A stretch of DNA of 24,952 nt from IMG/VR virus record IMGVR_UViG_3300002835_001017, positions 1 to 24,952 of that record; one strand, written 5' to 3'. The translations under genes were made by a program, and so were the position numbers. The notes under the pieces were generated by a model. It was not told the DNA's origin and searched no databases. It saw nothing but the letters and a program-made list of their open reading frames with translations. The stretch's first letter is position 1; every line of letters starts with the position of its first letter. The stretch comes from a virus. Below are positions 1 to 18,401 of this stretch, one piece after another.

Positions 1-2859
1 GATGTACTTACTCCAATCGTTGATGCATTGAAGTTACCAAACCTAACGTATTTAAAGGATACGCAAGTTTACGGAATAGGAGATGTTGATTTTGCAGTAT
101 TTAGTATATTTGATAACAAAGATAATTGGCCAAAAGCTGAAACTCTATTTGGAAACAAAAAGATTGCACTATTTCACGGACCTGTTGATAACTCTACAAC
201 CGATGTAGGGTATGTGGTTAGTAGTAGACACTTTACAACTGAAATATTTGATGGATACCATTTAGCTCTATTAGGAGATATCCATAAAAGACAAGAGATG
301 ATATCACCAAGCGGATGTAAGGTGGTATATGCTGGTTCTTTGGTACAACAAAACTTCGGTGAGACATTAGACAAGCACGGATTCTTAGTTTGGGATTTAG
401 ATACAATGACCTATGAAGAAGTTGATATCAAAAATGATTATGGTTATTACACTTTGGATGTTGATGGTGGTATTGTGCCGGATGTAACCGATATGCCGTT
501 GTACCCTCGTTTAAGAGTGAGGATAACTAATACGGATACCGCAGATACAAAGAGGATGATGGCTGATATCACTACAAAGTATGGTGTGGAGGACTTTACA
601 ATCATTAGAACGGATACATTCAATAAGAAGAAAACCAACGATAGAGAGGCAAGGCTGGAAGTAGACAGCATAGCTGATATAAACCATCAAAACTCTTTAA
701 TCGGTGAGTATATTGAACGTATGATGCCATTTGTGACAAAGGAGGACTTAGCTGGAATAGAGAAAATCAATCGTGACATTAATAGTAGAATACAACCATC
801 AGAACTACAAAGAAACATAAGCTGGAAACCAATTAAGTTTGATTTCAGTAATATGTTCTCATACGGAGAGAGAAACGTAATCAACTTCGATAAGGTAAGT
901 GGATTGATGGGATTATTCGCACCAAATGCACAGGGAAAATCATCTCTATTTGATGCAATCTCATTTTGCCTATTCGATAAGTGTAGTAGAGCTTATAAAG
1001 CATCCGCTATTATGAACAATCGTAAATCTGATTTCCATTGCCAATTAGAATTCTCCGTAGATGGAGTTATCTATGGTATTCGTAGAGAGGGAAGAACAAT
1101 CAATAAGGGAAAGAACGTAAAAGTGGATGTTGATTTTTGGAGAGAAGGAGATAGTGGTAGAGAATCACTTAACGGAACGGAACGTAGGGATACCAACCAA
1201 GTCATTGAAACCTATGTAGGAAGATATGAGGATTTCATTATGACTGCACTTTCACTACAAGCTAACAACGCACTATTCATTGATAAATCACAATCCGAAA
1301 GGAAAGATTTGATGGCTCAGTTTATGGGATTGGATATATTTGATAAGCTGTATGATACTGCTACCAACGATATCAAAGATGTGAATGCACTTATCAGAAA
1401 TTTCAGAAGAACCGACTTCACTTCGGAATTAGCCCAAAAAGAAAACGACTTGAATTCAAAGAGAGAGGAGTATGATAGTTTGGATGCTGAGAAGTTAGAA
1501 TTAGAAACTCGTAAGAGTGATTTGGAAGAACAAATTGTAACCATATCTCAACAAATAGTTCCAATTCAAGGTAACTTAGATATTAATTCTCTAAACGCAA
1601 AAGCACAAAAGATTGTTGATGATTTAAAGACTTGGGGTGATAGTAAATTCGATAAAACAATAAAACATACGGAGGCTAATGAATTAGTTAGAGAAGCTAA
1701 AGAAATGGTTGATTCTAAAGTTACTATAAACGGAACTGATATTGGTGAAGCACAAATACAATTGAATTTAGTTAAAGGACAGATTAAAGATACATTACAT
1801 CAGATTGAATTATTAGAAAGTGCTATTGAACATAACAAAGAGAAGTTATCACATTTAGCAGAGCATGAATATGACCCTAATTGTAACTTTTGTATGAACA
1901 ATGTATTCGTAAAGGATGCAAAGGAAACCGAAACTAAATTAGGAGAGCAGGGTAATCAATTAGAAATACTAAACATATTACATGGTGCTCTTATAACTCA
2001 ATTAGGTGAATTGGCTGGAGTTGAAGACCAATTCCGTCAATGGAAACAATGGACTGATGAATATAAACGATTGATAGTAGTAAGAGAACGTTTGGATACT
2101 GATATTAAAACTTGCGATACTAAGGTTGAATTGTTACAACATCAAAAAGAAACTGTGTCAGCTGATATTAATAGATATTTTGAAAACGAAGGAACTATTA
2201 TACGAAACGAAGCATTAGATATTCAAATCCAAAATGTTCGTAGATTAAAGCAAGGTGTTGAAAAACAAATATCAGATGTAAACAAACTTATGTTGAAATT
2301 AATGTCAGAAGTAGGTGCAACCAAAACTTACATTGACAATATGGTAGCTAAGATGGAGGAAGTAAAAGAATTGGAAAGCAAAAACCAATTATATACATTC
2401 TATTTAGATGCAGTTAAGAAAGATGGTGTACCATATGAGTTAATATCCAAAGCACTTCCAGCAATTGAAAACGAAGTGAACAACATATTAGGACAAGTGG
2501 TAGACTTCTCAATATCAATGGATACCGATGGAAAGAACATTAACGCTAGAATCGTTTACGAAGACCAGGAGTGGGCTCTTGAGATGTGTAGTGGTATGGA
2601 GAAGTTTATATCGGGATTAGCGATTAGAGTCGCTCTAATTAACATATGCAACCTACCAAGACCAAACTTCTTAGTAATAGATGAAGGGTTTGGTACATTG
2701 GATGCGGATAACCTATCATCCCTATTTATGATGATGCAATATCTTAAAACTCAATTCGATTTCATTTGGGTAATTTCTCACTTAGAACAAATGAGAGATA
2801 TTGTAGATGGACTTATCGAAATTAAAAAGGTAGATGGGTTCTCTAAGATTAATTTCTAA
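1..2859 (+). CDS. Mre11-Rad50 (SbcD-SbcC, T4 gp47-gp46-like) fusion nuclease, 5' truncated
   Basis: The reading frame is open from base 1, so the N-terminal part of the nuclease domain lies outside the window and the apparent TTG start at 28 is not real. The first ~250 residues match the end of an SbcD/Mre11 phosphoesterase: an HGPVD segment, GDIH (274-285, the metal-binding G-H/D-x-H element), then YAGSLVQQNFGE and a capping-like region. Without a stop the frame enters an SbcC/Rad50 ATPase: Walker A APNAQGKSS (919-945), a long coiled coil broken by a zinc hook CNFC (1882-1893), the ABC signature region MCSGME near 2584-2601, and Walker B LVIDEGFGTLD near 2671-2703. In T4, gp46/gp47 process DNA ends for recombination-dependent replication and host DNA degradation; here both activities appear to sit on one chain. 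The gene ends just before an intrinsic terminator and overlaps the 3' end of a minus-strand gene by 11 bp. Confidence 0.93.
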   Translation, partial: DVLTPIVDALKLPNLTYLKDTQVYGIGDVDFAVFSIFDNKDNWPKAETLFGNKKIALFHGPVDNSTTDVGYVVSSRHFTTEIFDGYHLALLGDIHKRQEMISPSGCKVVYAGSLVQQNFGETLDKHGFLVWDLDTMTYEEVDIKNDYGYYTLDVDGGIVPDVTDMPLYPRLRVRITNTDTADTKRMMADITTKYGVEDFTIIRTDTFNKKKTNDREARLEVDSIADINHQNSLIGEYIERMMPFVTKEDLAGIEKINRDINSRIQPSELQRNISWKPIKFDFSNMFSYGERNVINFDKVSGLMGLFAPNAQGKSSLFDAISFCLFDKCSRAYKASAIMNNRKSDFHCQLEFSVDGVIYGIRREGRTINKGKNVKVDVDFWREGDSGRESLNGTERRDTNQVIETYVGRYEDFIMTALSLQANNALFIDKSQSERKDLMAQFMGLDIFDKLYDTATNDIKDVNALIRNFRRTDFTSELAQKENDLNSKREEYDSLDAEKLELETRKSDLEEQIVTISQQIVPIQGNLDINSLNAKAQKIVDDLKTWGDSKFDKTIKHTEANELVREAKEMVDSKVTINGTDIGEAQIQLNLVKGQIKDTLHQIELLESAIEHNKEKLSHLAEHEYDPNCNFCMNNVFVKDAKETETKLGEQGNQLEILNILHGALITQLGELAGVEDQFRQWKQWTDEYKRLIVVRERLDTDIKTCDTKVELLQHQKETVSADINRYFENEGTIIRNEALDIQIQNVRRLKQGVEKQISDVNKLMLKLMSEVGATKTYIDNMVAKMEEVKELESKNQLYTFYLDAVKKDGVPYELISKALPAIENEVNNILGQVVDFSISMDTDGKNINARIVYEDQEWALEMCSGMEKFISGLAIRVALINICNLPRPNFLVIDEGFGTLDADNLSSLFMMMQYLKTQFDFIWVISHLEQMRDIVDGLIEIKKVDGFSKINF

Positions 2860-3111: not shown

Positions 3112-6100
3112 ATGGCAAGAATAAAAAAATACTCACCAAGTTTAAGTACTAATTTAACTTATTACGAAACTTTTGCGGTTGATACTAATCCAACTTCGGA
3201 TTATTTCAAAGTAACCGAATTTAAAGATACATTTACAGGTGGTAAAAACGGATTCTTAATTGAAGGTTCTGAACATCTAATGGAATCTACTGAAATAAAA
3301 ATAGAGATTATAGATGTTAATGGAAATTCTATTTATTATGAACCTGGTAATGGTGTTCCTGAATATTATGAAGGATTATCAAAAATTGTTGCAGTTTATA
3401 TTTACGAAGATACTCCAATCGGAGATGCTAAAATAACTATACTTGGTGAATTAAAAACATATAAAGATGGTGTTAATGTAAAAGATATTCCTGATAATTG
3501 GAAAGGTGTATATAATGTAAAATGGGAAAAAACATTTAAGGTAAATAGATTACTACCAAATGAAGATACTGTTAGATTTTATAAAAGACCAAATGTAAAC
3601 ATAACAGAAATAACAAAACCAATATTCAGTACATCTTTAGCAACAATAACTCAAACTGGTAGTTTATATGGTACATCAATAACTCCACAAGAAGGACAAC
3701 CGTTAGCTAATTACAAATTACCAACTTTCTATAAATTAACAATAGATGATGATAGCAATTGGACCGGTTCTATTGTGGGCTCGATAATCAATGTACCAAC
3801 TTTAGGATATTCCACACAAGTAGATAGTGTAATAAATAATAAAGAATTATTAGTAAAAACCCCATATACTAATCAATATTTAGGTTCTGCGTATGGTGAT
3901 ATAGTTCAAAATTTTACAAGCGAAGGATATACATCTTCATTTAATTACTACGAAGGCATTGGTTTAACAGCAAGTGCACTAACTGGTTCTTTTGCCAAAA
4001 TAAACATTAGCGATTTAACTACATTTGTTGGAGATGTATCGAGAGTTAAAATATTTAGAAAATCACAATCTCAAGTAGTAGATTATCAATTTATACAAGA
4101 GATAGCATTGGAATCCAATGAATTATTAATTGATTTAGAATCAAAAACAAAGAATCAGGAATACTATGGTATATTTACTCAACCAATTATACAAAATTAT
4201 TGGGTAACTTCATCTAATTCTATAACTGCTACATTTAATCAAAATTATTTATATGATTCTGTTAAACTTAGTAGTGCAACTTCTAAATATTTTTATACAA
4301 CCAAATCAATTGCTTTAAAGGAAGGTTCTGAATATAGTTTAGATTTTAATGTAAGATTACAAGATACAATATCTGCTAACAATTATATAAGAGCATTTTT
4401 AAGTGGTTCTAGAGTATCAACAAATGGTACAATTCAAGTAGAGCAAAATATTACAACAATAATATCTAACAATGGTCTAATACAAAAAAGTAATAGTTTA
4501 AGTAATATTAAAGCTGAACAAATTGATAACGCTAGATTGTATTTTGAAGTAGTTGGTAATAATTGGTACATATCAAATGTTAGTTTTAAAGCATCCAAAG
4601 AAACGGCATTTTCTCCTGATGATATAACATTCATTCAATCCGTACCAAGAGAATTACCAGTTGAAACATTTGATTATAGATTTGAATTCTATGGTAGTAA
4701 TGGTAAATTGATTCCTGTATTAGTTGAAGAACAAAAAACATTCGATGGCGGTAACTTACAAAATATTAAAAAAGAATTACGCTTAATACCATCATCATTA
4801 TATTTTCAGTTTGATTCTGGTTCAAACCCAGTTCCACCAACTACTATAAACATAGAAGTACAAAAAACATTATTAACTGGGTCTGTTCATTATACATCAC
4901 AATCAATTGATTTTTTTGGAAACGTATTAACATATGATGATTATACAGCTTCTTTTACTGGGCAAAGATATCCTGGTTTACTTCTTAATATAAATTCAGA
5001 TAGTCCAGAATTAACTGTAGGAAATTTTACTGGTTCTAGAAGTGATAAAATAGTTCAATATTTAGAAATAACCGGTGAGGTAGAAGGGTTTACTGATACA
5101 GTTGTTATTAGTAGAGTTTTAGATGGTTTTGGTGGGGTGAATCATATCATTAGACCTTTTAGAGGACTTGAAATTAGAAACAGTAGTACACAAAGTTTAG
5201 AAATTCAAGCGGTAAGAATAGATGGTGTAAATGATATATCGTTAAGTAGTACAACACAACCAAATAAAGGGTTTAATAGAATCCAATTGCACGTAATATC
5301 AGCTTCACTTGAGGGTGTTGAGAAATTTGTAAACTTAGCATATGCATCTTCATCTGGATTTATAAAAGGATTGAGTACGGGTTCTCTTGGTACTCGTGAA
5401 ATAAATTATAACGCAACATTTAATAGAGATTCAATTGATAAAAGATTGACGGTTTATTTAATGCCATCTTCATCAAATCCAGTATCTTCATCTGTATTAG
5501 CATCCACAATATTATCGGATTTTCAAGATGGTTTAGATTCTGGATTCGTATCATATACAGCAGATGCGTTTACAATTAACCCAAGAATACAAACTACATT
5601 TACACCAATATCAGCAAGTGCAACGGCATCTTTCTTTATTAGAGGTACTAATGAAAATCCTGTTTCTGGTTCAGTAACAATATTCCCATCAATGTCAATT
5701 AATGTGGATTATGTTCCTGAATATTGGATGTATTATGTAACTCATAGCTTTGATCCTGATATTACTGTAATTGCAATCGATGATAATAAACATATAATAC
5801 CATCGAGAAACCCAAATCAATTTGTTGGGTTGCCACTAAGTCAAAGTAAAACACTTACTGTAACTTGGACATATACAGAAGATTATACATCAGCATCGGT
5901 TAGTATAGATAAAACATTTTCTATTATACCCGAAGGTAAGCCGGGAGATGAATCAATTGTATTTGAAACAAACCCATTAAATGTTGCACTAAAAGCAGAT
6001 GCAAAAGGTATTGTCAATAGTTATGATTCATCTGCAACTGAAATTAAATTAAAGCAAGGTTCTAGATATTTGGTGTTTACTGGTAGTAGAGATGCTGGTA

Positions 6101-9100
6101 CATTCCATATAGCAACGGCATCAATTGTAACTCAAAATATAACAAAAGGTAGGGTAGAGTTTGGACAAACATCATCCCTATTTGTAAGTAAGTCATCAGC
6201 ATTAACTCAATTGAGTGGTAGTGTTGAGTATCCAATGATAATTCATCCGTATTATACTTCATCAATTTATACGGCAAGTATAGTACAAAATTATACAAAA
6301 ATATTGGATGGAGCGCCTCCTCTTGATGTAACGATAGAACCTATTGTAGTATCTTTGAATTCGGATGAAGTTGGTGCAATTTATGATTATAGTAGAACAT
6401 CAACAACAATTAGAATAAAAGAAGGCTCTGATTACTTAGTGTATTCGGATGTATCAACGGCACCTGGAACATTTAGAATTGATAATATAGATTCCAATCG
6501 TATTACAAACTTAGCAATATCTGGGTCATCTACAACAACGGCATCTTTGAAATTCAACGGATTCCATTATCCAAATGTATCGGCTAGTGCACTTTATAAT
6601 ATTGTTGCATATCCGTATTCATTAGGACCTGGTCATATATATTCATCATCGGCATTCCAACGTACTCAGGCATTTACAAAAAACGTAGCACCTGCCAAAG
6701 CTAGAACAGTAAATGTAACAGCGATATCTCAAACAATTACATATGATAGAGATACAAATGCGTTTAGTCCGCAAGAAGATAACATATTAACAGCAACTGC
6801 ATTTAATACAACTGGTTCTGTTTATTATTATTGGTTCGATGGAGCTGGAGTTGAAATTGGAACTGACCCAACTCACTTGGATAATACACATAATCCAAAT
6901 GATTCAACTGGTAACCCTGGACCTGGTGAAGTGTTTACTTATGTTGTAAAAATAACTGATGGTAACCCATATACATCAGCTACAATAAATCCTTATAGAG
7001 CAGAAGCTTCTGTGAGTGTGTCTGGTGTTAAACAAGGAGCAGATGCGTATAAATTAGTTGCAACAAATGAAAATACATCAATAACCGCAGATTTGTGGAC
7101 TAGTTCTTTTGATGGTACTGGTATTAAAATATCTGCTTTTAAAGGAACGGATGAATTAGTACATACATCATCATATTCTAATGCAACAAAGGTATATGAT
7201 TATTTGGGTACATTTATTGGAAACGTTGGATTTTATTCAGCATCAATTCACTCAACATCAACTTTTATAACACCAGGTGGAACTAAATTTCCACCAAGTA
7301 GACCTGCATCAATTGGAAATTTAACTGGATGGACTTATCCTGGAACAAATAAGTCTGGTAATATAATTTACAAAGTTGATTTTGAAAATGGAAGACAGAC
7401 TCAATTTGTAACACAATCAATAGGAGTTCAATTTACACCACCAGCACCATATGATGCAAAACTTACAAATGATAACTCATCAATAGTTTATAAAGTTTCT
7501 GGTGAAGTTGAATTTTTTGGAACTGGTACTTTGATTAGAGCATATAGAGGGGATACTATATTAACAAACAAACCTTCTGGATTTACAGGCGGACAACCGG
7601 ATGCATATGGAAATACTGGATATAAAGAACAATGTAGAATAACAATATTTGATAAATCATCTCACATAACATTGGCAGGTGGTTTGGTTCCTGGTAATCC
7701 TGTTCCTGGTATATCTACATCGGCAAGTTTGGGTACTAACCCCGATTGGATTGGTGTAACTGCATGGAATGACCCAGAAACAAATCCAACTGGAGTAATT
7801 ATATATGAAATTGATTGTGAAGGTAGACAAAAATTATATAAGACACAATCTTTATCAGTTCAGTTTGAAGGTAATACTGGACCTGGTGTTGTAATGAGAG
7901 GAGAGTGGACTTCTGGTATTGATTATATTGGTAGTGTTGAAACTACAAACTATCGTAGAGATGCGGTAATATATAATGCGGTACCAGGAACAACAACATA
8001 TTATGCAGCTGTTAGTGGTAGTGGGCCTGGTACAGCTGCTGGAGCACAAACCCCATCTGGTACAACGGCAAGTACAAATTATTGGCAATATTTGGGAGTT
8101 GAAGAATTTTTTGTGGCAGCTAAGATTGCAATATTTGAAGAATCGTATGTTAAAAATACAATTAACGTTGGTACTAAAAATGGTACTGGTGCATTTGCTA
8201 ACATTGTAATTTCTGGAGGTAGAACCGACCCATATATCGCTATCGGCCAAAATGCAACTGTTGGAACGGCCGGTACTTCTGGTACATCAACACCATCAAC
8301 GGGTGTTATTGGATATGATAGACCTGGTATATTTTTAGGAATATATGAAAGTGGAACTGCCGGCGGTGGTGCTGGTACAACTGGTAGATTTTCTATAAGT
8401 AACGCAGATGGTACTAAAGCACTTAAATGGGATGGTAGTACTTTAACAATCGTAGGTGCGATTAGACAAGTTACACCGGGAGTAAGTGAGGGTTCTTTAA
8501 GAGGAGCATGGACAAGTGGATTTATATATTATGCAAATGATATAGTTTCATATGCAGGTCAAAGCTGGCAATGTACATCTGCAGCATCCCATACTGCAAC
8601 AAATAATACAAATGCAACAACTGGGTATCCCGGTTCTGGTCCTTGGGTAATTGCGGCAGCAGCTGGAACGTCTGGAACAGCTGGTAGTGGTGGAACTGCT
8701 GGTGTAAATGGGGCAGCTGGAGCAGCTGGACCTGGTGTTGTTTATAGAGGGCCTTGGACTGGTAGTTTAGAATACTTCAAAACAACTGAAAGAACAGATG
8801 TTGTTAAAGGTAGTGATAATCAATATTATATAGCAAAATCAACACACACTCCAAATGTAGTAAATGCACCAATTGGTACAGCTACTAGACCAATTGATGG
8901 AGGTTCGTATTCTACATATTGGCAATCATTTGGGGCAACATTTAGTTCGGTAGCAACTGGATTATTACTTGCAGAAAACGCAACTATAACTAAGGGATTG
9001 GTGATAGGGCAGGATGGTACTGATGTAGGATTTATCCGTTCCGCTGGTGCACTTAGTATTGGTGGTGGTAATGGATTTTATATGGATGCTGCTGGTAGAA

Positions 9101-10983
9101 TGAGATTTGGAGCAGATACATCTACTGATGGTAACTTTGTTTATTGGGATGGTAGTACATTGGATATAAATGGAGTAATAACTGCAGATTCTGGAGAAAT
9201 TGGAGGATTTACTATTGCTAATAATAAATTACTTGCATCTGGTAGTTTATTGAGATTCGATACACAAATTCCACAAATTGAATTTTATACAAATGCTACT
9301 GGTTCTGCAAAGGTTATTCTTAATCCAAAGGCAACATTAACAGATCCGGGTGGAACTATAATATATATAAGTGGAGCAATGTATGATGGAACTGATGGCA
9401 ATAGAACAGCAGCGTCTGGTACTACTTCTACTACTACATATGTTACGCAAACATATAGTGGTTCTTTGGGAGTGTCATCAGTATATGGTTCGCCGGCATA
9501 TACTTTGCAAAGTTTTGGTGAGTCTGGAAATACAAACTTTGAAGTTTACGTCCCAGCAACAAGCTTAGCAATATCAGCAACTACCCCAACGGCATATTCG
9601 GATTCCCCACCATATGCACCACAATATTCATATCAATCCTATTATTCTGAATATGCATATGCAGGTAACGTATCTGCTGGCTGGTATGTACAAATGTTTG
9701 ATTCTACTGGAACAACATTTATATCAGAAGTAGCACTTAACGGTGCATCAACATACAGAACCAGTACAGCAACTAATAACTACTACCAAGCATACACTTA
9801 TACCAGTGGTTATCCATATTATGAGGAATCATACAGTTGGAACTCTGTTTCAAATTCAAACACAGCATATTATCAGGGAAATATACCATTTGGACCTAAA
9901 GCAGGGCAAATAGCAATACCATCACCGGGTATATATAAGTTTAGATTGGTATTAAAAGTATCAGCACAATCTGCCGGTATAAGTGATTTTACGGGAGGTA
10001 CATCTACATATTACACTACAACGGCAACTGCAAACCATACAACAACAGGAGATATTACATTCCAGTTTTCACCAAACGTAAACAAAACGGAAATAACCAA
10101 TGGTGGTATTCAAGTACTATCAAACAAAGATGCATATGTTAAATTTATAAGACTTGAACCAAATTCATACTCAGCATCCGAAACACTTGCATGGGTAATT
10201 GGAGCAAAGACAAGTCTTCAAGCATATGGTGTATATCCTGCTTACTATGAACAAACTGCACTTGTTGTTACTGGAAAAGTATCGGTATCATCTAAGGGAG
10301 AAAACACATTAGGTATTACCGATTATGATACTGGTACATCACAATACATATCTCTTACGATTGGTGGTAAGTATTCCGATACTACTTTGGCAAATCAAAG
10401 TAGAGTATTTACTTTATCAAACATATATCCATATCAAGATGATAAATACGATTTAGGAGCTGCATCATACAGATGGAGAGATATTTTTACAAATGGCGCA
10501 GTCACCGTTACATCGGATAGAACTAGAAAATTTGAAATACAAACAGCTCAATTAGGATTGGATTTTATAAATAAATTACAGCCTGTATCGTATAGAATGA
10601 TTACTGGTAGTATGGTATATCAATCACCTTGGCCTAATTTTGTGGATAAAGTATTACAACCGGGCGAAACCGATGATACGGGAATTGTATTAAAAGAACA
10701 AAAAATTATAAAAGTACCAAACCCAGAACACCCACCACTAATTGAAGTTATACCCGGTAAAAGAACTCACTATGGTTTAATTGCACAAGATGTAAAACAA
10801 ACTTTAGATGAAATTGGAGTATCAACTACTGATTTTGCTGGTTACGTTGCTGGTGATGTTGAAAATGATGAAACATTAGGATTGCGATATGAGGAATTTA
10901 TATCTCCTATGATTAAAGCAATTCAAGAACTATCATCAAAAGTAAATCAATTAGAACTAATAATAAGTGGTTCGTTTTCTTAA
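3112..10983 (+). CDS. Giant tail fibre / receptor-binding protein with C-terminal S74 chaperone domain
   Basis: A 2623-residue, Ser/Thr/Tyr/Gly-rich, mostly beta-structured protein. Most of the N-terminal two thirds resembles tandem Ig-like or beta-sandwich modules, including duplicated units (compare residues ~970-1010 with ~1090-1130, and ~1345-1370 with ~1465-1490). Three modules of the form RG-x-W-T-S-x3-Y (residues ~1590, ~1793 and ~1873) look like small carbohydrate-binding modules, and a collagen-like run of eight G-x-y triplets sits at ~1851-1876. A segment with DGSTLDINGVI and EIGGFTI (~2015-2040) is typical of phage fibre and tip proteins. The C-terminus carries a peptidase S74 intramolecular chaperone: DLGAASYRWRDIF, then TSDRTRK with the candidate cleavage serine S2468 and K2473, then HYGLIAQDV and RYEEFISPMIKAIQEL. 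S74 domains trimerise the fibre and then cut themselves off, here releasing about 156 residues. The late-type box precedes the gene. Confidence 0.9.
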   Translation: MARIKKYSPSLSTNLTYYETFAVDTNPTSDYFKVTEFKDTFTGGKNGFLIEGSEHLMESTEIKIEIIDVNGNSIYYEPGNGVPEYYEGLSKIVAVYIYEDTPIGDAKITILGELKTYKDGVNVKDIPDNWKGVYNVKWEKTFKVNRLLPNEDTVRFYKRPNVNITEITKPIFSTSLATITQTGSLYGTSITPQEGQPLANYKLPTFYKLTIDDDSNWTGSIVGSIINVPTLGYSTQVDSVINNKELLVKTPYTNQYLGSAYGDIVQNFTSEGYTSSFNYYEGIGLTASALTGSFAKINISDLTTFVGDVSRVKIFRKSQSQVVDYQFIQEIALESNELLIDLESKTKNQEYYGIFTQPIIQNYWVTSSNSITATFNQNYLYDSVKLSSATSKYFYTTKSIALKEGSEYSLDFNVRLQDTISANNYIRAFLSGSRVSTNGTIQVEQNITTIISNNGLIQKSNSLSNIKAEQIDNARLYFEVVGNNWYISNVSFKASKETAFSPDDITFIQSVPRELPVETFDYRFEFYGSNGKLIPVLVEEQKTFDGGNLQNIKKELRLIPSSLYFQFDSGSNPVPPTTINIEVQKTLLTGSVHYTSQSIDFFGNVLTYDDYTASFTGQRYPGLLLNINSDSPELTVGNFTGSRSDKIVQYLEITGEVEGFTDTVVISRVLDGFGGVNHIIRPFRGLEIRNSSTQSLEIQAVRIDGVNDISLSSTTQPNKGFNRIQLHVISASLEGVEKFVNLAYASSSGFIKGLSTGSLGTREINYNATFNRDSIDKRLTVYLMPSSSNPVSSSVLASTILSDFQDGLDSGFVSYTADAFTINPRIQTTFTPISASATASFFIRGTNENPVSGSVTIFPSMSINVDYVPEYWMYYVTHSFDPDITVIAIDDNKHIIPSRNPNQFVGLPLSQSKTLTVTWTYTEDYTSASVSIDKTFSIIPEGKPGDESIVFETNPLNVALKADAKGIVNSYDSSATEIKLKQGSRYLVFTGSRDAGTFHIATASIVTQNITKGRVEFGQTSSLFVSKSSALTQLSGSVEYPMIIHPYYTSSIYTASIVQNYTKILDGAPPLDVTIEPIVVSLNSDEVGAIYDYSRTSTTIRIKEGSDYLVYSDVSTAPGTFRIDNIDSNRITNLAISGSSTTTASLKFNGFHYPNVSASALYNIVAYPYSLGPGHIYSSSAFQRTQAFTKNVAPAKARTVNVTAISQTITYDRDTNAFSPQEDNILTATAFNTTGSVYYYWFDGAGVEIGTDPTHLDNTHNPNDSTGNPGPGEVFTYVVKITDGNPYTSATINPYRAEASVSVSGVKQGADAYKLVATNENTSITADLWTSSFDGTGIKISAFKGTDELVHTSSYSNATKVYDYLGTFIGNVGFYSASIHSTSTFITPGGTKFPPSRPASIGNLTGWTYPGTNKSGNIIYKVDFENGRQTQFVTQSIGVQFTPPAPYDAKLTNDNSSIVYKVSGEVEFFGTGTLIRAYRGDTILTNKPSGFTGGQPDAYGNTGYKEQCRITIFDKSSHITLAGGLVPGNPVPGISTSASLGTNPDWIGVTAWNDPETNPTGVIIYEIDCEGRQKLYKTQSLSVQFEGNTGPGVVMRGEWTSGIDYIGSVETTNYRRDAVIYNAVPGTTTYYAAVSGSGPGTAAGAQTPSGTTASTNYWQYLGVEEFFVAAKIAIFEESYVKNTINVGTKNGTGAFANIVISGGRTDPYIAIGQNATVGTAGTSGTSTPSTGVIGYDRPGIFLGIYESGTAGGGAGTTGRFSISNADGTKALKWDGSTLTIVGAIRQVTPGVSEGSLRGAWTSGFIYYANDIVSYAGQSWQCTSAASHTATNNTNATTGYPGSGPWVIAAAAGTSGTAGSGGTAGVNGAAGAAGPGVVYRGPWTGSLEYFKTTERTDVVKGSDNQYYIAKSTHTPNVVNAPIGTATRPIDGGSYSTYWQSFGATFSSVATGLLLAENATITKGLVIGQDGTDVGFIRSAGALSIGGGNGFYMDAAGRMRFGADTSTDGNFVYWDGSTLDINGVITADSGEIGGFTIANNKLLASGSLLRFDTQIPQIEFYTNATGSAKVILNPKATLTDPGGTIIYISGAMYDGTDGNRTAASGTTSTTTYVTQTYSGSLGVSSVYGSPAYTLQSFGESGNTNFEVYVPATSLAISATTPTAYSDSPPYAPQYSYQSYYSEYAYAGNVSAGWYVQMFDSTGTTFISEVALNGASTYRTSTATNNYYQAYTYTSGYPYYEESYSWNSVSNSNTAYYQGNIPFGPKAGQIAIPSPGIYKFRLVLKVSAQSAGISDFTGGTSTYYTTTATANHTTTGDITFQFSPNVNKTEITNGGIQVLSNKDAYVKFIRLEPNSYSASETLAWVIGAKTSLQAYGVYPAYYEQTALVVTGKVSVSSKGENTLGITDYDTGTSQYISLTIGGKYSDTTLANQSRVFTLSNIYPYQDDKYDLGAASYRWRDIFTNGAVTVTSDRTRKFEIQTAQLGLDFINKLQPVSYRMITGSMVYQSPWPNFVDKVLQPGETDDTGIVLKEQKIIKVPNPEHPPLIEVIPGKRTHYGLIAQDVKQTLDEIGVSTTDFAGYVAGDVENDETLGLRYEEFISPMIKAIQELSSKVNQLELIISGSFS

Positions 10984-11018: not shown

Positions 11019-11303
11019 ATGGCACAAATAAAAGAACAATTAAACGTTGATGTTTTAAATAGCATTAAATCAAAAAGAGATGAAATATCTAATTTAGTGA
11101 TGGAATTAGGTCAAATCGGTTTTAGACACAGAGAACTTAGAAATGAGTTATTAAAATTAGACCAAATTAAAGTATCTATTGAAAATAGATTTGATGAGGT
11201 AAATGAAGAAATTAAATCAATTCTAGTAGAGTTGGAAGTAAAATACCCAAAGGGTGAAATAGACCTTCAAGAAGGTGTTGTTTATTTTGAATCTGCTGAA
11301 TAA
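11019..11303 (+). CDS. Small coiled-coil protein, paralogue of the one at 14726
   Basis: A 94-residue acidic, almost entirely helical protein with heptad-like spacing of Leu/Ile/Val over residues ~8-75, ending in a conserved tail KYPKGEIDLQEGVVYF. The tail and overall plan match the 122-residue protein at 14726 (KYPQGRINLQDGTIQY), so the two are paralogues. It starts 35 bp after the fibre stop and has its own late-type box. I do not recognise a named family. Its position directly behind the fibre would suit a fibre-assembly chaperone or connector, but this is only positional inference. No signal peptide, membrane segment or enzyme motif is visible. Confidence 0.8.
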   Translation: MAQIKEQLNVDVLNSIKSKRDEISNLVMELGQIGFRHRELRNELLKLDQIKVSIENRFDEVNEEIKSILVELEVKYPKGEIDLQEGVVYFESAE

Positions 11304-11309: not shown

Positions 11310-11341
11310 TTTGGTAGTTTCAAAATAATTTAGTATCTTTG
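11310..11341 (+). promoter_or_regulatory. Bacteroidetes housekeeping-type promoter for the glycosylation genes
   Basis: TTTG (11310-11313), a 20-bp spacer, then TATCTTTG (11334-11341). This fits the Bacteroidetes primary-sigma consensus TTTG - N19-21 - TAnnTTTG at every specified base. Transcription would begin a few bases downstream, leaving a short A/T-rich leader before the ATG at 11360. This is the only transcription unit in the window with this kind of promoter instead of the TATA(C/T)TTAT box. Confidence 0.72.
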
Positions 11342-11359: not shown

Positions 11360-13531
11360 ATGGAAAACACACGCAAAAGGTTACTTTACGTTTGCCCTCA
11401 CTTATCTACTGGAGGTCAACCACAATACACGTACAAACAAATAAAACACTTCATAAAAGATTTTGATATTGAAGTGGTTGAACTAAGCAATAGCGGAGGA
11501 AATGCTTTTGTAGTTCAAAAAAATAGAATCAAATCTTTATGTATCGTACATACATTAGGAGATGATAAATCTGAAATTTTAAATGTAATATCTGAATTTA
11601 AACCTGATATTATACATTTTCAGGAAATTCCACAGTTTGATTTAGCAACAAATATATTAGATAAAATATTCACAAAGGATAGAGAATATTTTATATTGGC
11701 AACAACTCATGGTTCTTTTACAAACCCATCTGAAATAGTATATCATCCAGACAAATATGTTTTAGTATCCGAATGGAGTAAACAAAAGTTTGCTGAAGCT
11801 GATTTGGGAGTTGATTTGGATTTATGGGAATATCCTATCGAAGAATATGAATTTGATAAGGAAGCTTCCCAAAAATATTTAGGATTAGACCCAACTTGGA
11901 AGCATGTACTTAATGTTGGTTTATTTTCTCCTGGTAAAAATCAAGCTGAAATATTTGCGGTAGCAAGACAATTAGAAAAATACAAAATTAAATTTCATTT
12001 TGTTGGTAATCAAGCAGGCAACTACGAACACTATTGGTTACCTATAATGAAACATAAGCCTGATAATTGTGTAATATGGGGAGAGCGTGACGATGTTGAT
12101 ATATTTTATTCAGCGTGTGACATGTTTTATTTCTCATCAACATTAGAATTAAATCCATTATCAGTTAAAGAGGCATTATCATTTAAGTTACCTTGTTTAT
12201 TTAGAAAATTACATACATACTTAGATACATACGATAGCAACCCATTAGTTCAATATATAACAGATGATTTAAAATTAACTAAAAGATTTATATTAGAAAA
12301 ACTACAACCTGAATTTAATGAAATACCAGGTTGGTTTGCATATCAAGATTTATATACTGATGTAGTTAAAAATGCTGGTAACGATGATGTGTTTGTAGAA
12401 GTAGGTGCATGGTTTGGTAAATCTACAAATTATTTAGCACAACAAATTAGAGAATCAAAAAAGAATATTAAATTTACAACTGTTGATACTTGGAAAGGAA
12501 CTGATGATGAAGATATACACCAAAATATTGTTGGCGCATTTAACGGAGATATATTTTATGAATTTGTAGATAATACAATTCTATCCGATAATTATGGAGC
12601 AATTGATATGATAAAAGATACATCCAGAAACGCAGCTAATAATTTTTCTAATGGTAGTATTGATTATATAATGTTAGATGCTGGGCACTCATATGATGCG
12701 CTTAAAGATGATTTAGAAGTTTGGTATAATAAAGTAAAACCGGGTGGAATTGTTAGTGGGGATGATTATGGTGTATTCTATGGAGTAACACAAGCAGCAG
12801 ATGAATTTTTCTATGGACAATTTGAAAAAGGATTTCGTTCATTTATTAGAAAAAAACCACGTATTCAAATAAGACATTTATTAACTAAACCTGAAGATGT
12901 TAGAGAAAGAGTTAGTATGTCATCTATTAAACAATTGGCAAAATATGGTATTGATTACCTCCCTATGGTAAATAAACCATATGAGGGATTACCACCATCG
13001 GAACATTGTAAAAGACCTGAACAAATAAGTGATAAGCCGGGAAATTTTGGAAACGGATTAGGACCTTTAACTGGAGGACATTACGGATGTTTCCAAGCAC
13101 ATAGAGGGGCATTGGAAACTATGAGTGATGAATATGATTACACTTTAGTATTTGAAGCTGATGCATTTATTTATACTGGATTAGAGGAATTTGTACAAAT
13201 AGTAAATAGAGCTTGTTTCTTAATGGAAAGAGATGATGTTTACTTTATGGGATTATCAGATAACGCATCTAGAAATAAAGAAAGAATAGATGAGTTATTT
13301 AGTAAAACGGCAGCAAATCAGGATTTAGCACATGCATATTTAATTCCAAATAAAACTAAAAATTGGTGGATTGAAAGATTCAATGATACACCTTGGGAGG
13401 GATATGATTTATGGCTTACCGATGTATTCTACAAAGAACCTAAATTAAGATACACTACAAATAAAATATATGTAAAACAATCAGAGGGATTTTCTTTGAT
13501 AGATAAAACAATTAAAACTTGGAGTATATGA
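11360..13531 (+). CDS. Three-domain glycan-modifying enzyme: GT4-like / SAM methyltransferase / GT25-like
   Basis: A 723-residue protein with three apparent catalytic modules. Residues ~1-315 resemble a GT-B glycosyltransferase of family 4: an N-terminal Rossmann start with GGQPQYTYKQ, a NVGLFSPGKNQ strand, and an E-x7-E element (E263, E271) within ELNPLSVKEALSFKLP. Residues ~335-480 resemble a class I SAM-dependent methyltransferase: FVEVGAWFGKSTNYLA (~345-360, motif I), DTWKGTDDEDIHQN, and LDAGHSYDALKDDLEVW with PGGIVSGDDY (~439-470). Residues ~490-723 resemble a GT25-type (LPS/procollagen galactosyltransferase-like) domain: LTGGHYGCFQAHRGALE (~570) and VFEADAF (~597), in place of the usual EDD. 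It overlaps the next glycosyltransferase by ATGA. The role is probably building or capping an O-linked glycan on a phage structural protein; the sugar and acceptor cannot be read from sequence. An alternative target is the host envelope. Confidence 0.82.
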   Translation: MENTRKRLLYVCPHLSTGGQPQYTYKQIKHFIKDFDIEVVELSNSGGNAFVVQKNRIKSLCIVHTLGDDKSEILNVISEFKPDIIHFQEIPQFDLATNILDKIFTKDREYFILATTHGSFTNPSEIVYHPDKYVLVSEWSKQKFAEADLGVDLDLWEYPIEEYEFDKEASQKYLGLDPTWKHVLNVGLFSPGKNQAEIFAVARQLEKYKIKFHFVGNQAGNYEHYWLPIMKHKPDNCVIWGERDDVDIFYSACDMFYFSSTLELNPLSVKEALSFKLPCLFRKLHTYLDTYDSNPLVQYITDDLKLTKRFILEKLQPEFNEIPGWFAYQDLYTDVVKNAGNDDVFVEVGAWFGKSTNYLAQQIRESKKNIKFTTVDTWKGTDDEDIHQNIVGAFNGDIFYEFVDNTILSDNYGAIDMIKDTSRNAANNFSNGSIDYIMLDAGHSYDALKDDLEVWYNKVKPGGIVSGDDYGVFYGVTQAADEFFYGQFEKGFRSFIRKKPRIQIRHLLTKPEDVRERVSMSSIKQLAKYGIDYLPMVNKPYEGLPPSEHCKRPEQISDKPGNFGNGLGPLTGGHYGCFQAHRGALETMSDEYDYTLVFEADAFIYTGLEEFVQIVNRACFLMERDDVYFMGLSDNASRNKERIDELFSKTAANQDLAHAYLIPNKTKNWWIERFNDTPWEGYDLWLTDVFYKEPKLRYTTNKIYVKQSEGFSLIDKTIKTWSI

Positions 13532-14676
13532 TATACGGTAATTTAAAAAAGAATATACAGCCAATTAGAGAAATACAAAATAGAGTAATCTTTCATAACG
13601 TAAGAGGACCTTTTGTAGAAATAAAAGGAAGTAAAAAAGCAGATTACAGAGTTGAATTTATAGATTCAAAAACAAATAAAGTTTTGTACAGAGCAAACAT
13701 AGCAAATAATTGTTGGTGTAAGTGTAGTATAGAATATTTTGTAAATTGGAAAATTGTAATTTATGAAGATGGGAAGTTGTGGTATGAAAAAATGTACGAT
13801 GCAACAAATGCAAATGTATATATAGCATTGGATTCTAAGGCCTTGGGTGATTCTTTAGCATGGTTTCCATATGTAGAGGAATTTCGTAAAAAGCATAATT
13901 GTAAAGTTGTAGTATCTACATTTATGAACGATATGTTTATAAGTAAATACCCTGAATTGGAATTTGTTGCACCGGGAACATCTGTTGGTAATTTATACGC
14001 AATGTATTCAATTGGTTTATTTTATAATGAAGATGGTACTATAAATGGTTTAAAAAATCCAATAGACCCAAAAACACAAACTATGCAAAAAATGTGTAGT
14101 GATATATTGGGATTGGATTACATTGAAGTTAAACCAATATTAAAAGATAGACCTGTAACTATTGATAATGATTTAAAACAAATTTGTATTGGAATACATG
14201 GTACAGCACAACCAAAATTTTGGAATAATCCACAAGGTTGGCAAGATGTAGTAGATTGGTTAGTAGGTAGAGGTTACACAGTTAAATTACTTTCTAAAGA
14301 AGGTGATGATTATATGGGAAATAAATTACCAAATGGAATTGTAAAACACCCAATCGGCCCACTTGAATTAGTTATGGATGAAATGAAAAAATCCAAAGCA
14401 TTTATTGGTATTGGTAGTGGATTGAGTTGGTTAAGTTGGGCATTAAATGTTCCTACTGTATTAATTAGTGGATTCTCATATGATTGGGCTGAAATGCAAG
14501 ATTGTGTAAGAATTGCCGCACCGAAGGGAAAATGTGAAGGATGTTTTAATAGACTTAAATTAGATGCGGGTGATTGGAATTGGTGTCCTGACCATAAAGA
14601 TACAAATAGACAATTTGAGTGTACAAAATCAATAACATCCGAATCGGTAATAAAAGAATTGGAAAAATTCTTATAG
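13528..14676 (+). CDS. TibC/AAH-type protein O-heptosyltransferase family glycosyltransferase
   Basis: I place the start at ATG 13528, which overlaps the upstream stop as ATGA, rather than TTG 13519; the product is 382 residues. The N-terminal ~90 residues form a small beta domain (KKADYRVEFIDSKTNKVLY) followed by LDSKALGDSLAWFPYVEEFR. The C-terminal half is a GT9-like GT-B domain with GIHGTAQPKFWNNPQGW, HPIGPLELVMDEM and IGIGSGLSWLSWALNVP. The end carries four cysteines, C336-x2-C339, C353 (WNWCPDH) and C365 (FECTKSIT). This layout is that of the bacterial autotransporter O-heptosyltransferase family (TibC, AAH), where a similar Cys4 site holds a ferric ion and the enzyme decorates Ser residues of surface adhesins. 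In a phage, the Ser/Thr-rich fibre encoded just upstream is the natural candidate acceptor (inference). It is co-transcribed with the preceding fusion enzyme. Confidence 0.85.
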   Translation: MIYGNLKKNIQPIREIQNRVIFHNVRGPFVEIKGSKKADYRVEFIDSKTNKVLYRANIANNCWCKCSIEYFVNWKIVIYEDGKLWYEKMYDATNANVYIALDSKALGDSLAWFPYVEEFRKKHNCKVVVSTFMNDMFISKYPELEFVAPGTSVGNLYAMYSIGLFYNEDGTINGLKNPIDPKTQTMQKMCSDILGLDYIEVKPILKDRPVTIDNDLKQICIGIHGTAQPKFWNNPQGWQDVVDWLVGRGYTVKLLSKEGDDYMGNKLPNGIVKHPIGPLELVMDEMKKSKAFIGIGSGLSWLSWALNVPTVLISGFSYDWAEMQDCVRIAAPKGKCEGCFNRLKLDAGDWNWCPDHKDTNRQFECTKSITSESVIKELEKFL

Positions 14677-14725: not shown

Positions 14726-15094
14726 ATGGCAGGATTAGATAACATCCCACAAAAAACAACAGTTGAGATTGAAACATCTAAATTAGATGAGACTGTATTA
14801 GAAAAAATAACAGAATTGAATAAAAAATCAACTATGTTAGTTAATGATTTTGGAAGTATTTATATCAGAAAGAAAGAATTGCATTTAGAAATAGAAAGAC
14901 TTGATTCTGTTCTTGAAAAAGCTGAAGCTGAATTTAAACTCATTAATGATGAATTAAAAGATGCAGTTGATGCACTTGATGAAAAATACCCACAAGGTAG
15001 AATTAACTTACAAGATGGTACAATTCAATATCAACCGGGAGCACCTACTAGAAAGCAATTAGCTGAACAACAAGCACAAGGGGCACAGGCTTAA
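14726..15094 (+). CDS. Small coiled-coil protein, paralogue of the one at 11019
   Basis: A 122-residue acidic helical protein. A low-complexity N-terminus precedes a coiled coil from about residue 20 to 92 and a tail ALDEKYPQGRINLQDGTIQY, which aligns with the C-terminus of the 94-residue protein at 11019. It differs by an N-terminal extension and a Gln/Ala-rich C-terminal extension (PTRKQLAEQQAQGAQA). The identical upstream 18-bp promoter sequence supports duplication. No known family is recognised. Presence in a late transcription unit suggests a virion or assembly protein, and nothing more specific can be said. Confidence 0.8.
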   Translation: MAGLDNIPQKTTVEIETSKLDETVLEKITELNKKSTMLVNDFGSIYIRKKELHLEIERLDSVLEKAEAEFKLINDELKDAVDALDEKYPQGRINLQDGTIQYQPGAPTRKQLAEQQAQGAQA

Positions 15095-15146: not shown

Positions 15147-18100
15147 ATGAGCGAATTATCAAATTTCTTAGTAGAATCTATATTATTGGAGAAAGCGGAT
15201 TCCATAAACAAAGTAGTTGTTGTTTATTCGGGCCGCTTTCAACCTTTTCATAAGGGCCATTACGCAACTTATGAAAACTTAGTACGCAAATTCGGAAAGG
15301 ATAGCGTGTATATCGGAACTTCTAATGTTACCGATTCAAAAAAATCTCCATTTAGTTTTAAGGAAAAAAAAGCAATAATGATGCAGATGTTTGGGATACC
15401 ATCATCTAAAATTGTTAATGTCAAAAATCCATATGCACCTGAAGAAATACTAAAGAAGTATGATTCTGATACAACTGGTTTAATAGTTGTAGTTGGTGAA
15501 AAGGATGAAAATCGTTTAAGTGGTAAATACTTCACTCCATATAAAGGTAAAGTAGAGCAAGGATATTTAGATAAAGGATATGTGTACGCTTCGCCTGCTA
15601 CGGCAAATCCTATTAGTGGAACTGATGTTCGTTATTGGTTGAGTGCTGGAAGTGCAATTGACAGAAAGAAAAACTTTACAAAAGCATATCCAAAATTTGA
15701 TGACCAAATATTCAAATTAATTACTCTTAAGTTAAAGGGATTGAAAGAATGTATTAACGAAGAAATTAAATTAAACGTAAAAGTTGGTGATACTTTATTA
15801 ATGGGTAAATTCAAAAATAAAAAAGTAGTTGTTAAAAATATAGGAACTGATGAATGGGGAATGCCAACAATCAATGGTAAGAAAGCAGTAACATTCAGAA
15901 TTCCTAAAAAAGAAACTCTAAAAGAAACCGCATCTAATAGTGGGTTTGGAGGACAAGATGAACCTGATACATCATTTGTAGCAGATGGACAACCTAGAAT
16001 ATTAAACACAGCTAAACCTGAAAATTGGTACACTCAAGGTGGATATACTCAAATGGATACTCCCAAAGCAGACGCTATGAGAGGTAGAGGTAAATCAAAA
16101 GATACCGAAACTCAATTTAGAAAAGCTTATTACAAATTAAAGAATGTAACACAAAGTACATTAAATCCAGCAGATGACCCACATACTGTTGAAGATTGGC
16201 AAGAAACCGAACCAAATAAAGCAATAGATAAACCTAAAAGATTTTGGGAATTACCTGATAATCAAAAAGATACTATAATTTCAAAAGAAGATATCAAAGA
16301 AATCGTTGATGATTTTGATGAACTATTAGATGAGATGGGACTTGGTGGTGGAGCTGGTGTGGGTTTAAGTTTACCGGGTGGATATATAAATGGAGCACCT
16401 GATAGTGATGATGTTAAGAAGGTTAGTAAAAAACTTAACAACAAAGGAATGAGTGGATATGAGGAAATTGATGAAATAGCAGTTCAGATTGATAATATTC
16501 CTGGTGGGTTAGCAAACGGTATGACATTAAATGATATAGCTAAGCATCATAATATAAGTCCACAAACATTAAAGAATGAATTTATAAAAGGATATGCAAT
16601 AGAAAGAGAACATACTACTGATATTAATATAGCAAAAGAAATTGCATTAGACCATCTATACGAAGACCCAAATTATTATAGTAAACTTTCTAAAATAGAA
16701 ATACCATATAATGAAGGATTCACAAAAGGACAGATATTTGCTGGTAAAATGAAGGTGGGTGGAAGGCCTGTAAATGTAGAAGTTGAATTGGTAGGTTCTG
16801 ATAATAAAAAAAATGAATTTATAACTAAAATCATATTCGTTGATAAAGGATATGAAAGACAATTACCAATAGGTTCTAAGTTACCAATACCGGCTAGAAT
16901 ATTTAGAACACCTGGTGGCGGTTGGAGAAAAATTAAAACACCATCTGCGTTTGAAAATGTAACTGAAGCAACTACATCCGATATAATAAAAGATTTGGAT
17001 AAAGTAAAAAATGATTTAATTAAAAAGGTAGATGTATTAATTGCTAAAAAGAAAAAACTATATTCTAATATGGATATAGAATCTCCAATGAGTGCAGATG
17101 AAAAGAAATTAGATAAGGATATACAATCTATATTTTCACAAATCCAACAATTAATTCTACAAAAAAGAAAAATAAAAGAATCAATAAACGAATCATTATT
17201 ATTAGAAGGTGGTGCGTATGGTCACATGAATCATCCATTTGATATTGAAATGAATCTTACATTTGCTGATTTAAAACAAATTGTGGTAAGGGCATTAAAT
17301 GGTGATTTGGAATTGGCAAGAGAAAAGACTGATGGACAGGCATTGGCAGTTAGTTGGGTTAATGGTAGATTAGTTGCAGCTCGTAACAAATCACACCTAA
17401 AGAACAAAGGTGAAGGTGCTATGACAATAGGACAAGTAGCTACTAAGTTTGCTGGCAGAGGTGGATTAACCGATGCTTACAACTTCGCTATGCAGGATTT
17501 ATCCAAAGCAATTGGAGCACTATCCGAACCTCAACGTAAGAAGGTTTTTAAGGATGGTAGCTCGTTTATGAACTTAGAAGTGATATATCCAACCTCTGTA
17601 AACGTAATCCCTTACAATCAACCCCTATTGGTATTTCATGGTACATTTGATTATGATATCGATGGTACTATTGTAGGTGAGAACCAACAAGCAGCATCTA
17701 TATTAGGTGGAATGATTAAACAAGTAAACGCACATGTTCAATCAAAGTACACAATTCAGGGACCTCCAATTAATAAACTTCCTAAATCGGAACATCTTTC
17801 TAAATTGCAAGGAAAATATTTAGGAATGATTTCTAAACTTCAAAATGAATTTAAATTAGCGGATAGTGATGGTGTGGCTGATTATCATCAAGCATGGTGG
17901 ACTAACTTTGTAGAAAAGAAAGCTAAGAAGTTAGATTATCAACAAAAGATAGGATTAATAAAGAGATGGGCTTTTGGTGATAAGAGTTTCCGTATAGCAG
18001 AAATAACTGATGACAAATTAAGAGCATGGGCTGAACAAACTGATAAGCAAGACCAACAAAAGATAGGGAAGCAAAATCTAATGAGATTTGAGGAGATATT

Positions 18101-18401
18101 TTTAGGAGTTGGTGCTGATGTACTATCTTTTATGGATTCGGTTCTTACAGCAAACCCTGATAGTGCTAAAAGACAAATGGTAGCTCGTTTACAATCAACA
18201 ATAGCTCAAGTAAAAGCAAGTGGTGACCCTAAGAAAATTGAAAAATTAAAATTAGAATTATCTCGCCTAAATGCACTTGGTGGATTTGAAAAGATTGTAC
18301 CAAATGAGGGTATTGTATTTGTATATGGTGGTAACACTTACAAATTAACAGGTGCATTCGCACCCCTAAATCAAATTTTAGGTATTTTCTTCGATAAATA
18401 A
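15147..18401 (+). CDS. NMN-adenylyltransferase-like domain fused to a covalent nucleotidyltransferase (ligase-like) domain
   Basis: A 1084-residue multi-domain protein. Residues ~20-195 are an adenylyl/cytidylyltransferase of NMNAT type: GRFQPFHKGH (29-38) is the HxGH nucleotide-binding motif and ISGTDVR (156-162) matches the ISxTxIR motif. The middle contains a glycine-rich stretch GVGLSLPGGYINGAP (~407-421), a segment EREHTTDINIAKEIALDHL (~490-510) resembling the phage/bacterial DUF5661 pattern, and a Lys/Glu-rich coiled coil (~610-680). Residues ~688-1084 carry ligase-superfamily motifs: KTDG (727-730, motif I, candidate adenylylated Lys727), NLEVIYP around E811 (motif III), LLVFHGTFDYD (~827-837, IIIa), EGIVFVY (1054-1060, IV) and YKLTG with K1066 (V). 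It is probably an RNA or DNA end-modifying ligase coupled to an NAD-forming or nucleotide-activating domain. Repeated ESILLE/ESLLLE sequences at residues 10-15 and 682-687 suggest prohead targeting or cleavage sites. Confidence 0.82.
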   Translation: MSELSNFLVESILLEKADSINKVVVVYSGRFQPFHKGHYATYENLVRKFGKDSVYIGTSNVTDSKKSPFSFKEKKAIMMQMFGIPSSKIVNVKNPYAPEEILKKYDSDTTGLIVVVGEKDENRLSGKYFTPYKGKVEQGYLDKGYVYASPATANPISGTDVRYWLSAGSAIDRKKNFTKAYPKFDDQIFKLITLKLKGLKECINEEIKLNVKVGDTLLMGKFKNKKVVVKNIGTDEWGMPTINGKKAVTFRIPKKETLKETASNSGFGGQDEPDTSFVADGQPRILNTAKPENWYTQGGYTQMDTPKADAMRGRGKSKDTETQFRKAYYKLKNVTQSTLNPADDPHTVEDWQETEPNKAIDKPKRFWELPDNQKDTIISKEDIKEIVDDFDELLDEMGLGGGAGVGLSLPGGYINGAPDSDDVKKVSKKLNNKGMSGYEEIDEIAVQIDNIPGGLANGMTLNDIAKHHNISPQTLKNEFIKGYAIEREHTTDINIAKEIALDHLYEDPNYYSKLSKIEIPYNEGFTKGQIFAGKMKVGGRPVNVEVELVGSDNKKNEFITKIIFVDKGYERQLPIGSKLPIPARIFRTPGGGWRKIKTPSAFENVTEATTSDIIKDLDKVKNDLIKKVDVLIAKKKKLYSNMDIESPMSADEKKLDKDIQSIFSQIQQLILQKRKIKESINESLLLEGGAYGHMNHPFDIEMNLTFADLKQIVVRALNGDLELAREKTDGQALAVSWVNGRLVAARNKSHLKNKGEGAMTIGQVATKFAGRGGLTDAYNFAMQDLSKAIGALSEPQRKKVFKDGSSFMNLEVIYPTSVNVIPYNQPLLVFHGTFDYDIDGTIVGENQQAASILGGMIKQVNAHVQSKYTIQGPPINKLPKSEHLSKLQGKYLGMISKLQNEFKLADSDGVADYHQAWWTNFVEKKAKKLDYQQKIGLIKRWAFGDKSFRIAEITDDKLRAWAEQTDKQDQQKIGKQNLMRFEEIFLGVGADVLSFMDSVLTANPDSAKRQMVARLQSTIAQVKASGDPKKIEKLKLELSRLNALGGFEKIVPNEGIVFVYGGNTYKLTGAFAPLNQILGIFFDK

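Follow-up and report, generated by a model that had tools for sequence, protein, structure and literature searches.

The TibC/Aah enzymes (BAHT) are known as modifiers of autotransporter adhesins in Gram-negative bacteria (PMC4358343). Here we consider a member of this family that is encoded by a virus. The window, that is, the whole stretch of DNA analysed, is a 24,952-base IMG/VR virus record (IMGVR_UViG_3300002835_001017) whose terminase, portal and prohead protease genes are of T4 type, and the gene in question lies at 13528-14676. For the SgtA-BclA3 system of Clostridioides difficile, experiments in vitro have shown that Thr (and Ser) residues of Gly-Pro-Thr-type triplets become O-glycosylated (PMC7157674), and by analogy it may be regarded as the closest proven counterpart of the mechanism proposed below. 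A dedicated glycosyltransferase gene adjoins the gene for a collagen-like protein in that system, as it often does in the phage clade described here, the window itself having two short triplet runs only. SgtA differs in that it is a metal-dependent UDP-GlcNAc transferase with a spore protein as target and Gly-Pro-Thr acceptors, and it has no demonstrated kinship with TibC. Mycobacteriophage virion proteins are glycosylated too, with glycans reported on capsid and tail-tube subunits (Freeman et al. 2023, as cited in PMC12619734); the likeness to the present proposal lies in the modification of virion proteins, and the target proteins differ.

The window gene belongs to a sister clade of TibC that has members in hundreds of aquatic viruses (an alignment search of IMG/VR gave at least 568 confirmed loci) and is linked with Gly-Thr-Ser collagen-like fibres; among GenBank phage records, only 4 of 50,697 have a relative. 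Comparison with these viruses and with methane-oxidising bacteria suggests that long collagen-like tail fibres are sugar-coated by this branch of TibC, an acceptor that is undescribed for the family. In a literature search made mostly without subscription journals, no papers tying TibC/Aah to phages or collagen-like proteins were found, and nothing relevant on phage TibC, TIGR04414, collagen-like tail-fibre glycosylation or the Microcystis phage Mel-JY01.

A TibC-family protein on a branch of its own

13528..14676, + strand: TibC-family glycosyltransferase, 382 amino acids (aa)
13849..13851, + strand: codon of D108, equivalent to TibC Asp110, the catalytic base
14215..14217, + strand: codon of K230, equivalent to TibC Lys230, a donor phosphate contact
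14371..14373, + strand: codon of V282, at the position of TibC Arg286 (adenine contact), changed; the alignment is ungapped from V282 to W301
14533..14622, + strand: Cys4 iron finger with C336, C339, C353 and C365, equivalent to TibC C339, C342, C358 and C370

The open reading frame (ORF) is intact, with ATG at 13528, a stop at 14674-14676 and TTG at 13519 as a possible alternative start. Its product scores 272.1 bits (E 7e-81) with NCBIfam TIGR04414, hepto_Aah_TibC, the autotransporter strand-loop-strand O-heptosyltransferase family, and so passes the curated cut-off of 200 bits. The glycosyltransferase family 9 (GT9) models stay below theirs, with 16.9 of 22 bits for PF01075 (Glyco_transf_9) and 26.5 of 185 for TIGR02193 (heptosyltransferase I, the test for GT9/WaaC); on these scores, a reading as a GT9 enzyme of lipopolysaccharide (LPS) was rejected. 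Pfam TibC_1st is likewise below its cut-off (20.3 of 27), and no PHROGs family matched. The only related solved structures are those of TibC itself (4rap/4rb4, E 9e-52). An AlphaFold2 (AF2) model, built from 32 sequences with a predicted local distance difference test score of 91.8, has the N-terminal beta-barrel and the GT-B-like catalytic domain of TibC and agrees with 4rap over the whole fold, with a template-modelling (TM) score of 0.85 over 373 columns; GT9 and WaaC structures come next, with TM at most 0.6. By sequence and fold, it is essentially certain that the protein belongs to the TibC/Aah family, as the initial annotation, made from the DNA alone, had held.

A tree of 74 sequences, made by a quick method, is divided by a fully supported split into 25 autotransporter-type rows, including Escherichia coli TibC, and 49 phage-type rows. 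Six rows from Methylococcales are nested inside the latter (support value 97). An ORF with collagen-like triplets is nearby in 32 of the 49 phage-type rows, and in 28 of 44 after removal of five rows that had been picked by pattern, versus none of 24 autotransporter-type rows. Judged from these sequences, the phage-type TibCs form a large branch with members in T4-like phages, huge phages and Methylobacter-type bacteria, and the window protein is a member of this separate branch, in which Arg286 is mostly replaced and the proteins tested lack the acceptor repeats of the autotransporter branch. It had been proposed that the phage borrowed an adhesin-glycosylation system. Comparison with the bacterial enzymes does place the protein among TibC relatives, yet in a clade apart from the autotransporter TibCs; because this phage clade is large and encloses the Methylobacter genes, the gene does not look recently borrowed.

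The active site is largely that of TibC, for which the roles of Asp110, Thr226, Lys230, Trp305, Arg286 and the iron ligands Cys339, Cys342, Cys358 and Cys370 are known (PMC4358343). The window protein has equivalents of Asp110 (Asp in 49/49 phage-type and 25/25 autotransporter-type rows), Thr226 (Ser in some relatives), Lys230 (invariant in all 74 rows) and Trp305, and the tip of its putative counterpart to the hydrophobic beta-hairpin thumb of the TibC dodecamer carries two neighbouring hydrophobic residues, Y262-M263 in place of F265-V266. The sequence motifs and C-terminal Cys4 site quoted in the initial annotation are present; the catalytic residues and the four cysteines, a putative iron-type site, are invariant among 61 distinct phage homologues.

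Gly-Thr-Ser proteins as probable acceptors

TIGR04414 was passed in 24 of 50 virus records chosen solely by a Gly-Thr-Ser DNA pattern, in one of 40 chosen by an arbitrary pattern as a random control (Fisher, 4e-7) and in none of 28 viruses that truly encode Gly-Pro collagen triplets (1.5e-6); the Gly-Pro pattern is partly palindromic, and only the 28 of its 38 records really encoding such triplets were counted. Among records of at least 60 kb, TibC was found in 19/25 of the Gly-Thr-Ser-picked versus 1/14 of the random ones, and in 15 of 24 records it was no more than 10 kb from the pattern, where 5.3 were expected. In the reverse direction, every one of the 12 TibC records in a first set, which had been chosen partly for such ORFs, contained the strict pattern, as did 17 of 38 TibC-positive records of a second set (at least 30 kb). 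About 15 of the 19 TibC-positive records of at least 60 kb in both sets have three or more matches. More than one match occurred in a single random record of 40, which is the sole random record having TibC. At the level of single loci, those of the phage type often adjoin Gly-[Thr/Ser]-[Ser/Thr/Ala] collagen-like ORFs. The 735-kb phage LR756501.1 has 1,364 exact matches to the Gly-Thr-Ser triplet DNA pattern, nearly all on one strand.

The pairing also exists in bacteria. Phage-type TibC was found in eight Methylococcales genomes, and in seven of these eight loci a (GTS)n protein is encoded 13-141 bp away; the neighbours, 233-323 aa long, apparently carry a signal sequence and contain runs of the (GTS)n kind. 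No such neighbour was seen at the five autotransporter-type loci from the same search, nor a collagen-like triplet neighbour at any of 71 further autotransporter-type loci. While the neighbours of TibC/Aah are AIDA-I/TibA-type strand-loop-strand autotransporters (17-37 TIGR04415 repeats in the three autotransporter-type neighbours tested), those of the phage clade are collagen-like, and no TIGR04415 repeat was found in the Gly-Thr-Ser proteins tested. Since the Methylococcales pairing lies outside phages, it argues against a mere coincidence of phage fibres. The likely acceptor of the phage/Methylobacter-type enzymes is therefore predicted to be Ser/Thr in collagen-like Gly-X-Ser/Thr triplets, a view that seems well supported for the clade and moderately for the window phage.

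The fibre in the window

3112..10983, + strand: tail fibre of 2623 aa with a Peptidase_S74 end, candidate acceptor; homologue upstream in 46 other loci
8245..8289, + strand: fibre aa 1712-1726, triplet run GQNATVGTAGTSGTS
8656..8736, + strand: fibre aa 1849-1875, triplet run AAAGTSGTAGSGGTAGVNGAAGAAGPG

The initial annotation placed the enzyme beside an adhesin-like, Ser/Thr-rich fibre. The fibre is indeed nearby, although not immediately adjacent: it ends 2.5 kb upstream, and genes for a 94-aa and a 723-aa protein lie in between. The protein is a tail fibre that ends in a Peptidase_S74 chaperone, and TIGR04415 acceptor repeats were searched for in it without any being found. Three pairs of Ser/Thr triplets were observed in it, against a shuffled mean of 0.02, and none of 5000 shuffles reached as high a number. 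A virion fibre protein stays the probable target, with Gly-X-Ser/Thr triplets as the likely acceptor in place of general Ser/Thr richness or autotransporter-type repeats. At aa 1799-1837, the fibre also has a weak match to the carbohydrate-binding family CBM_5_12 (20.9 bits, cut-off 26.2).

In larger relatives, tail-fibre-like Gly-Thr-Ser ORFs of 897-3,152 aa lie distant from TibC: the distance is about 48 kb in the genome L205 and about 110 kb in L213, whose TibC is 74% identical to that of the window. Because the runs in the window fibre are short and the long Gly-Thr-Ser ORFs of larger relatives lie elsewhere, the main target of the window enzyme is probably encoded outside the window, and the candidacy of the nearby fibre as sole acceptor is weakened.

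The partner enzyme

11360..13531, + strand: 723-aa three-domain protein with matches to GT4 (about aa 1-330) and Methyltransf_24 (346-470) and a GT25-like C-terminus (about 570-620)

The stop codon of this gene overlaps the start of TibC (ATGA). GT4 and Methyltransf_24 are assigned by Pfam, and the GT25 match is below its cut-off. Foldseek with the AF2 model gave matches to GT4 enzymes, S-adenosylmethionine-dependent methyltransferases and ColGalT1, all at low TM-scores; as the GT4 part of the model is poor and the TM of the whole chain low, the domain reading rests on Pfam. In one scan of IMG/VR, 98 relatives were found, of which 80, with 65-79% identity, were kept, and the gene pair is found again in about 80 T4-like phages from fresh water. 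The order common to these is fibre, 94-aa protein, GT-methyltransferase, TibC, 122-aa protein, NMNAT-like protein, 227-aa protein, terminase and portal. Fusions of GT4 and TibC occur repeatedly, in several phages, and in Mel-JY01 GT4, methyltransferase and TibC make up a single protein of 1,226 aa. This setting, an operon or a fusion with GT4 and methyltransferase domains, sets the clade apart from TibC/Aah. The ATGA overlap, the conserved pair, the fusions and the one-polypeptide form of Mel-JY01 all support one shared pathway, in which the 723-aa protein and TibC would produce an extended, methylated glycan; the two-enzyme island that the initial annotation had singled out is in this respect upheld.

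In the Mel-JY01 record (PP395634.1, 2-3052 and 4750-8430), the fusion carries only the annotation 'methyltransferase FkbM', and a long Gly-Thr-Ser ORF 5' of it is annotated partly as minus-strand coding sequences.

The sugar donor

A pair of HldE-like genes directly follows TibC, before the 122-aa gene, in 29 of 76 loci of the window clade. It consists of a 128-aa nucleotidyltransferase and a 247-aa PfkB-type kinase, which best match domain II and domain I of the HldE (RfaE) kinase/adenylyltransferase, and thus resembles an HldE split into two short genes. The best NCBIfam matches are TIGR02199, with 91-103 bits (cut-off 181.5), and TIGR02198, with 85-117 bits (cut-off 345). Because the pair abuts TibC in these relatives, a heptose-type donor is favoured; the gene content favours a nucleoside diphosphate-heptose for the clade, and a heptose as the transferred sugar is plausible. 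Two possible sources of ADP-heptose were rejected. A complete phage-encoded pathway fails in that GmhA is over its cut-off solely in a 636-kb phage, 27 kb from its TibC, and a supply from Flavobacteriaceae fails in that the TIGR02199 cut-off is passed in none of 81 genomes, with weaker matches in 14.

Proposed mechanism and alternatives

We consider it probable that the island is a virion O-glycosylation cassette acting on Gly-X-Ser/Thr triplets of phage tail fibres. The TibC-like enzyme would act as a cytoplasmic protein O-glycosyltransferase in the infected cell, before fibre assembly, and would prime newly made fibre chains by adding a first sugar, most likely to Ser/Thr of Gly-X-Ser/Thr triplets. 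This sugar would probably be a heptose, taken from a nucleotide-activated heptose. The 723-aa protein would then probably lengthen and O-methylate the glycan, with the GT4 and GT25-like domains adding sugars and the methyltransferase capping them. In the window phage, the targets would be the two short fibre runs and, with greater likelihood, a long Gly-Thr-Ser fibre whose gene lies beyond the 25-kb record, as it does in larger relatives, and a glycosylated collagen-like shaft might be stiffer or protease-resistant. A more specific claim, that an undescribed TibC branch O-heptosylates Gly-Thr-Ser collagen-like proteins and that some phages bring their own heptose-activating enzymes, seems to us evenly poised. 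If true, it would give the TibC family a new acceptor class, reveal a virion glycoprotein of a new kind, suggest what stiffens or protects very long, Ser/Thr-rich and proline-poor collagen-like fibres, and allow virion glycosylation to be predicted from the sequences of uncultivated phages. For direct enzymology, the (GTS)n protein of Methylobacter and the enzyme next to it offer a clean pair from outside phages.

Several observations weigh against this interpretation. The triplet runs of the window fibre are short, and only 25 of the 46 fibres of the subclade have one. The strict Gly-Thr-Ser pattern is absent from 21 of the 38 TibC-positive records of at least 30 kb; a 133-kb record and the 636-kb phage are among the 21, and many are fragments. 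Related phages do not count as independent samples, and phage type was not matched in the random controls. The HldE-like pair scores about half the family cut-offs or less and is absent from the window. Finally, Arg286 of TibC is replaced by Val in the window protein; Arg is found here in 25/25 autotransporter-type rows, as against 8/49 of the phage type, and in the other 41 it is replaced along with a preceding TG motif. In TibC, Arg286Ala abolished or largely diminished function (PMC4358343). The neighbouring pair in relatives thus favours the heptose-type donor implied by the initial annotation, while the loss of Arg286 leaves 'heptosyl' unestablished.

These last observations speak for a donor other than an ADP-sugar, with the acceptor as proposed: CDP- or GDP-heptose or a hexose could be used, and the name heptosyltransferase would be wrong or too specific for the phage clade. 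A Flavobacteriaceae-type host, in which ADP-heptose is seldom made by the known route, would fit this as well. However, that host is itself something we infer, the phosphate and sugar contacts Thr226, Lys230 and Trp305 are kept, and the kinase and nucleotidyltransferase abutting TibC have heptose activation as their best family; a different donor is possible, and we lean against it. Rather unlikely, in our view, is a main action on Ser/Thr in folded domains of the 2623-aa fibre regardless of repeat type, as the initial annotation would have it, the triplets being a mere correlate of Bacteroidota-phage fibres. It would account for the homologous fibre gene 5' of the GT-TibC pair in most loci with a long enough contig, and for the 21 of 46 subclade fibres that lack a Ser/Thr triplet run, yet whose TibC keeps all catalytic residues. 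On the other hand, the fibre has no TIGR04415 repeats, in Methylococcales, where no phage is involved, enzymes of this clade are paired with secreted (GTS)n proteins, and TibC is absent from the Gly-Pro-collagen viruses.

Modification of a host surface polysaccharide, for example as a block to superinfection, in the way that GT9 heptosyltransferases act on LPS, would agree with the GT9-like fold, and O-antigen-modifying glycosyltransferases occur in phages. It is nevertheless improbable, given that the protein belongs, far above the GT9 models, to a family of protein O-glycosyltransferases, that it has the iron finger and the TibC-type N-terminal barrel, and that in phages as in bacteria its clade is linked with Gly-Thr-Ser proteins. 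Least credible of all is an action on hypermodified phage DNA. Glycosyltransferases do serve DNA modification in phages, according to PMC12619734, but membership in the TibC family and the linkage to fibre proteins point elsewhere, and no base-modification genes were seen in the window.

Promoter, flanking genes and probable host

11311..11341, + strand: Bacteroidota-type promoter TTG-N20-TATCTTTG, preceding the GT gene
11019..11303, + strand: 94-aa helical protein that resembles the 122-aa one at 14726 (cross-similarity of the two families in the synteny table)
14726..15094, + strand: 122-aa helical protein, 3' of TibC (synteny table of relatives)

Most of the gene pairs in relatives stand behind a promoter of this type: TTG-N16..23-TAnnTTTG, a promoter form known from Bacteroidota, occurs within 130 bp upstream of the GT gene in 53 of 64 related loci, versus 2.1% of random windows. 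Among cultured phages, the nearest terminases (58%) belong to Flavobacterium phage immuto and to Mel-JY01, the latter recorded from a cyanobacterium. From promoter form and terminases, the host of the window phage is presumably a member of the Bacteroidota. Phage-type TibC also appears in four contigs (L088, L090, L091 and L092) binned in metagenome-assembled genomes of Rickettsiaceae, Flavobacteriales, Winogradskyella and Pacearchaeota; several of them have fibre or tail-sheath-like genes and resemble phage contigs.

The 94-aa and 122-aa genes that flank the operon resemble paralogues, with similar 'KYPxGxIxLQ(E/D)G' endings. An identical ATACTTATATATATAAA stands 5' of both (10991 and 14692) and recurs with one mismatch at 18421; nine near-matches were observed and 1.3 expected. 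It is probably a late-promoter-type element, and the flanks of the island are possibly a duplication site. The NMNAT/cytidylyltransferase-like protein encoded at 15147-18401 is apparently the product of a modular gene; in relatives where its neighbours are the same, its length ranges between about 660 and about 1,500 aa. At the other end of the window (1-2859), an open-ended ORF of 952 aa has SbcD-like (aa 11-247) and SbcC-like (213-951) PHROGs matches in one frame, and may encode a fused SbcD-SbcC.

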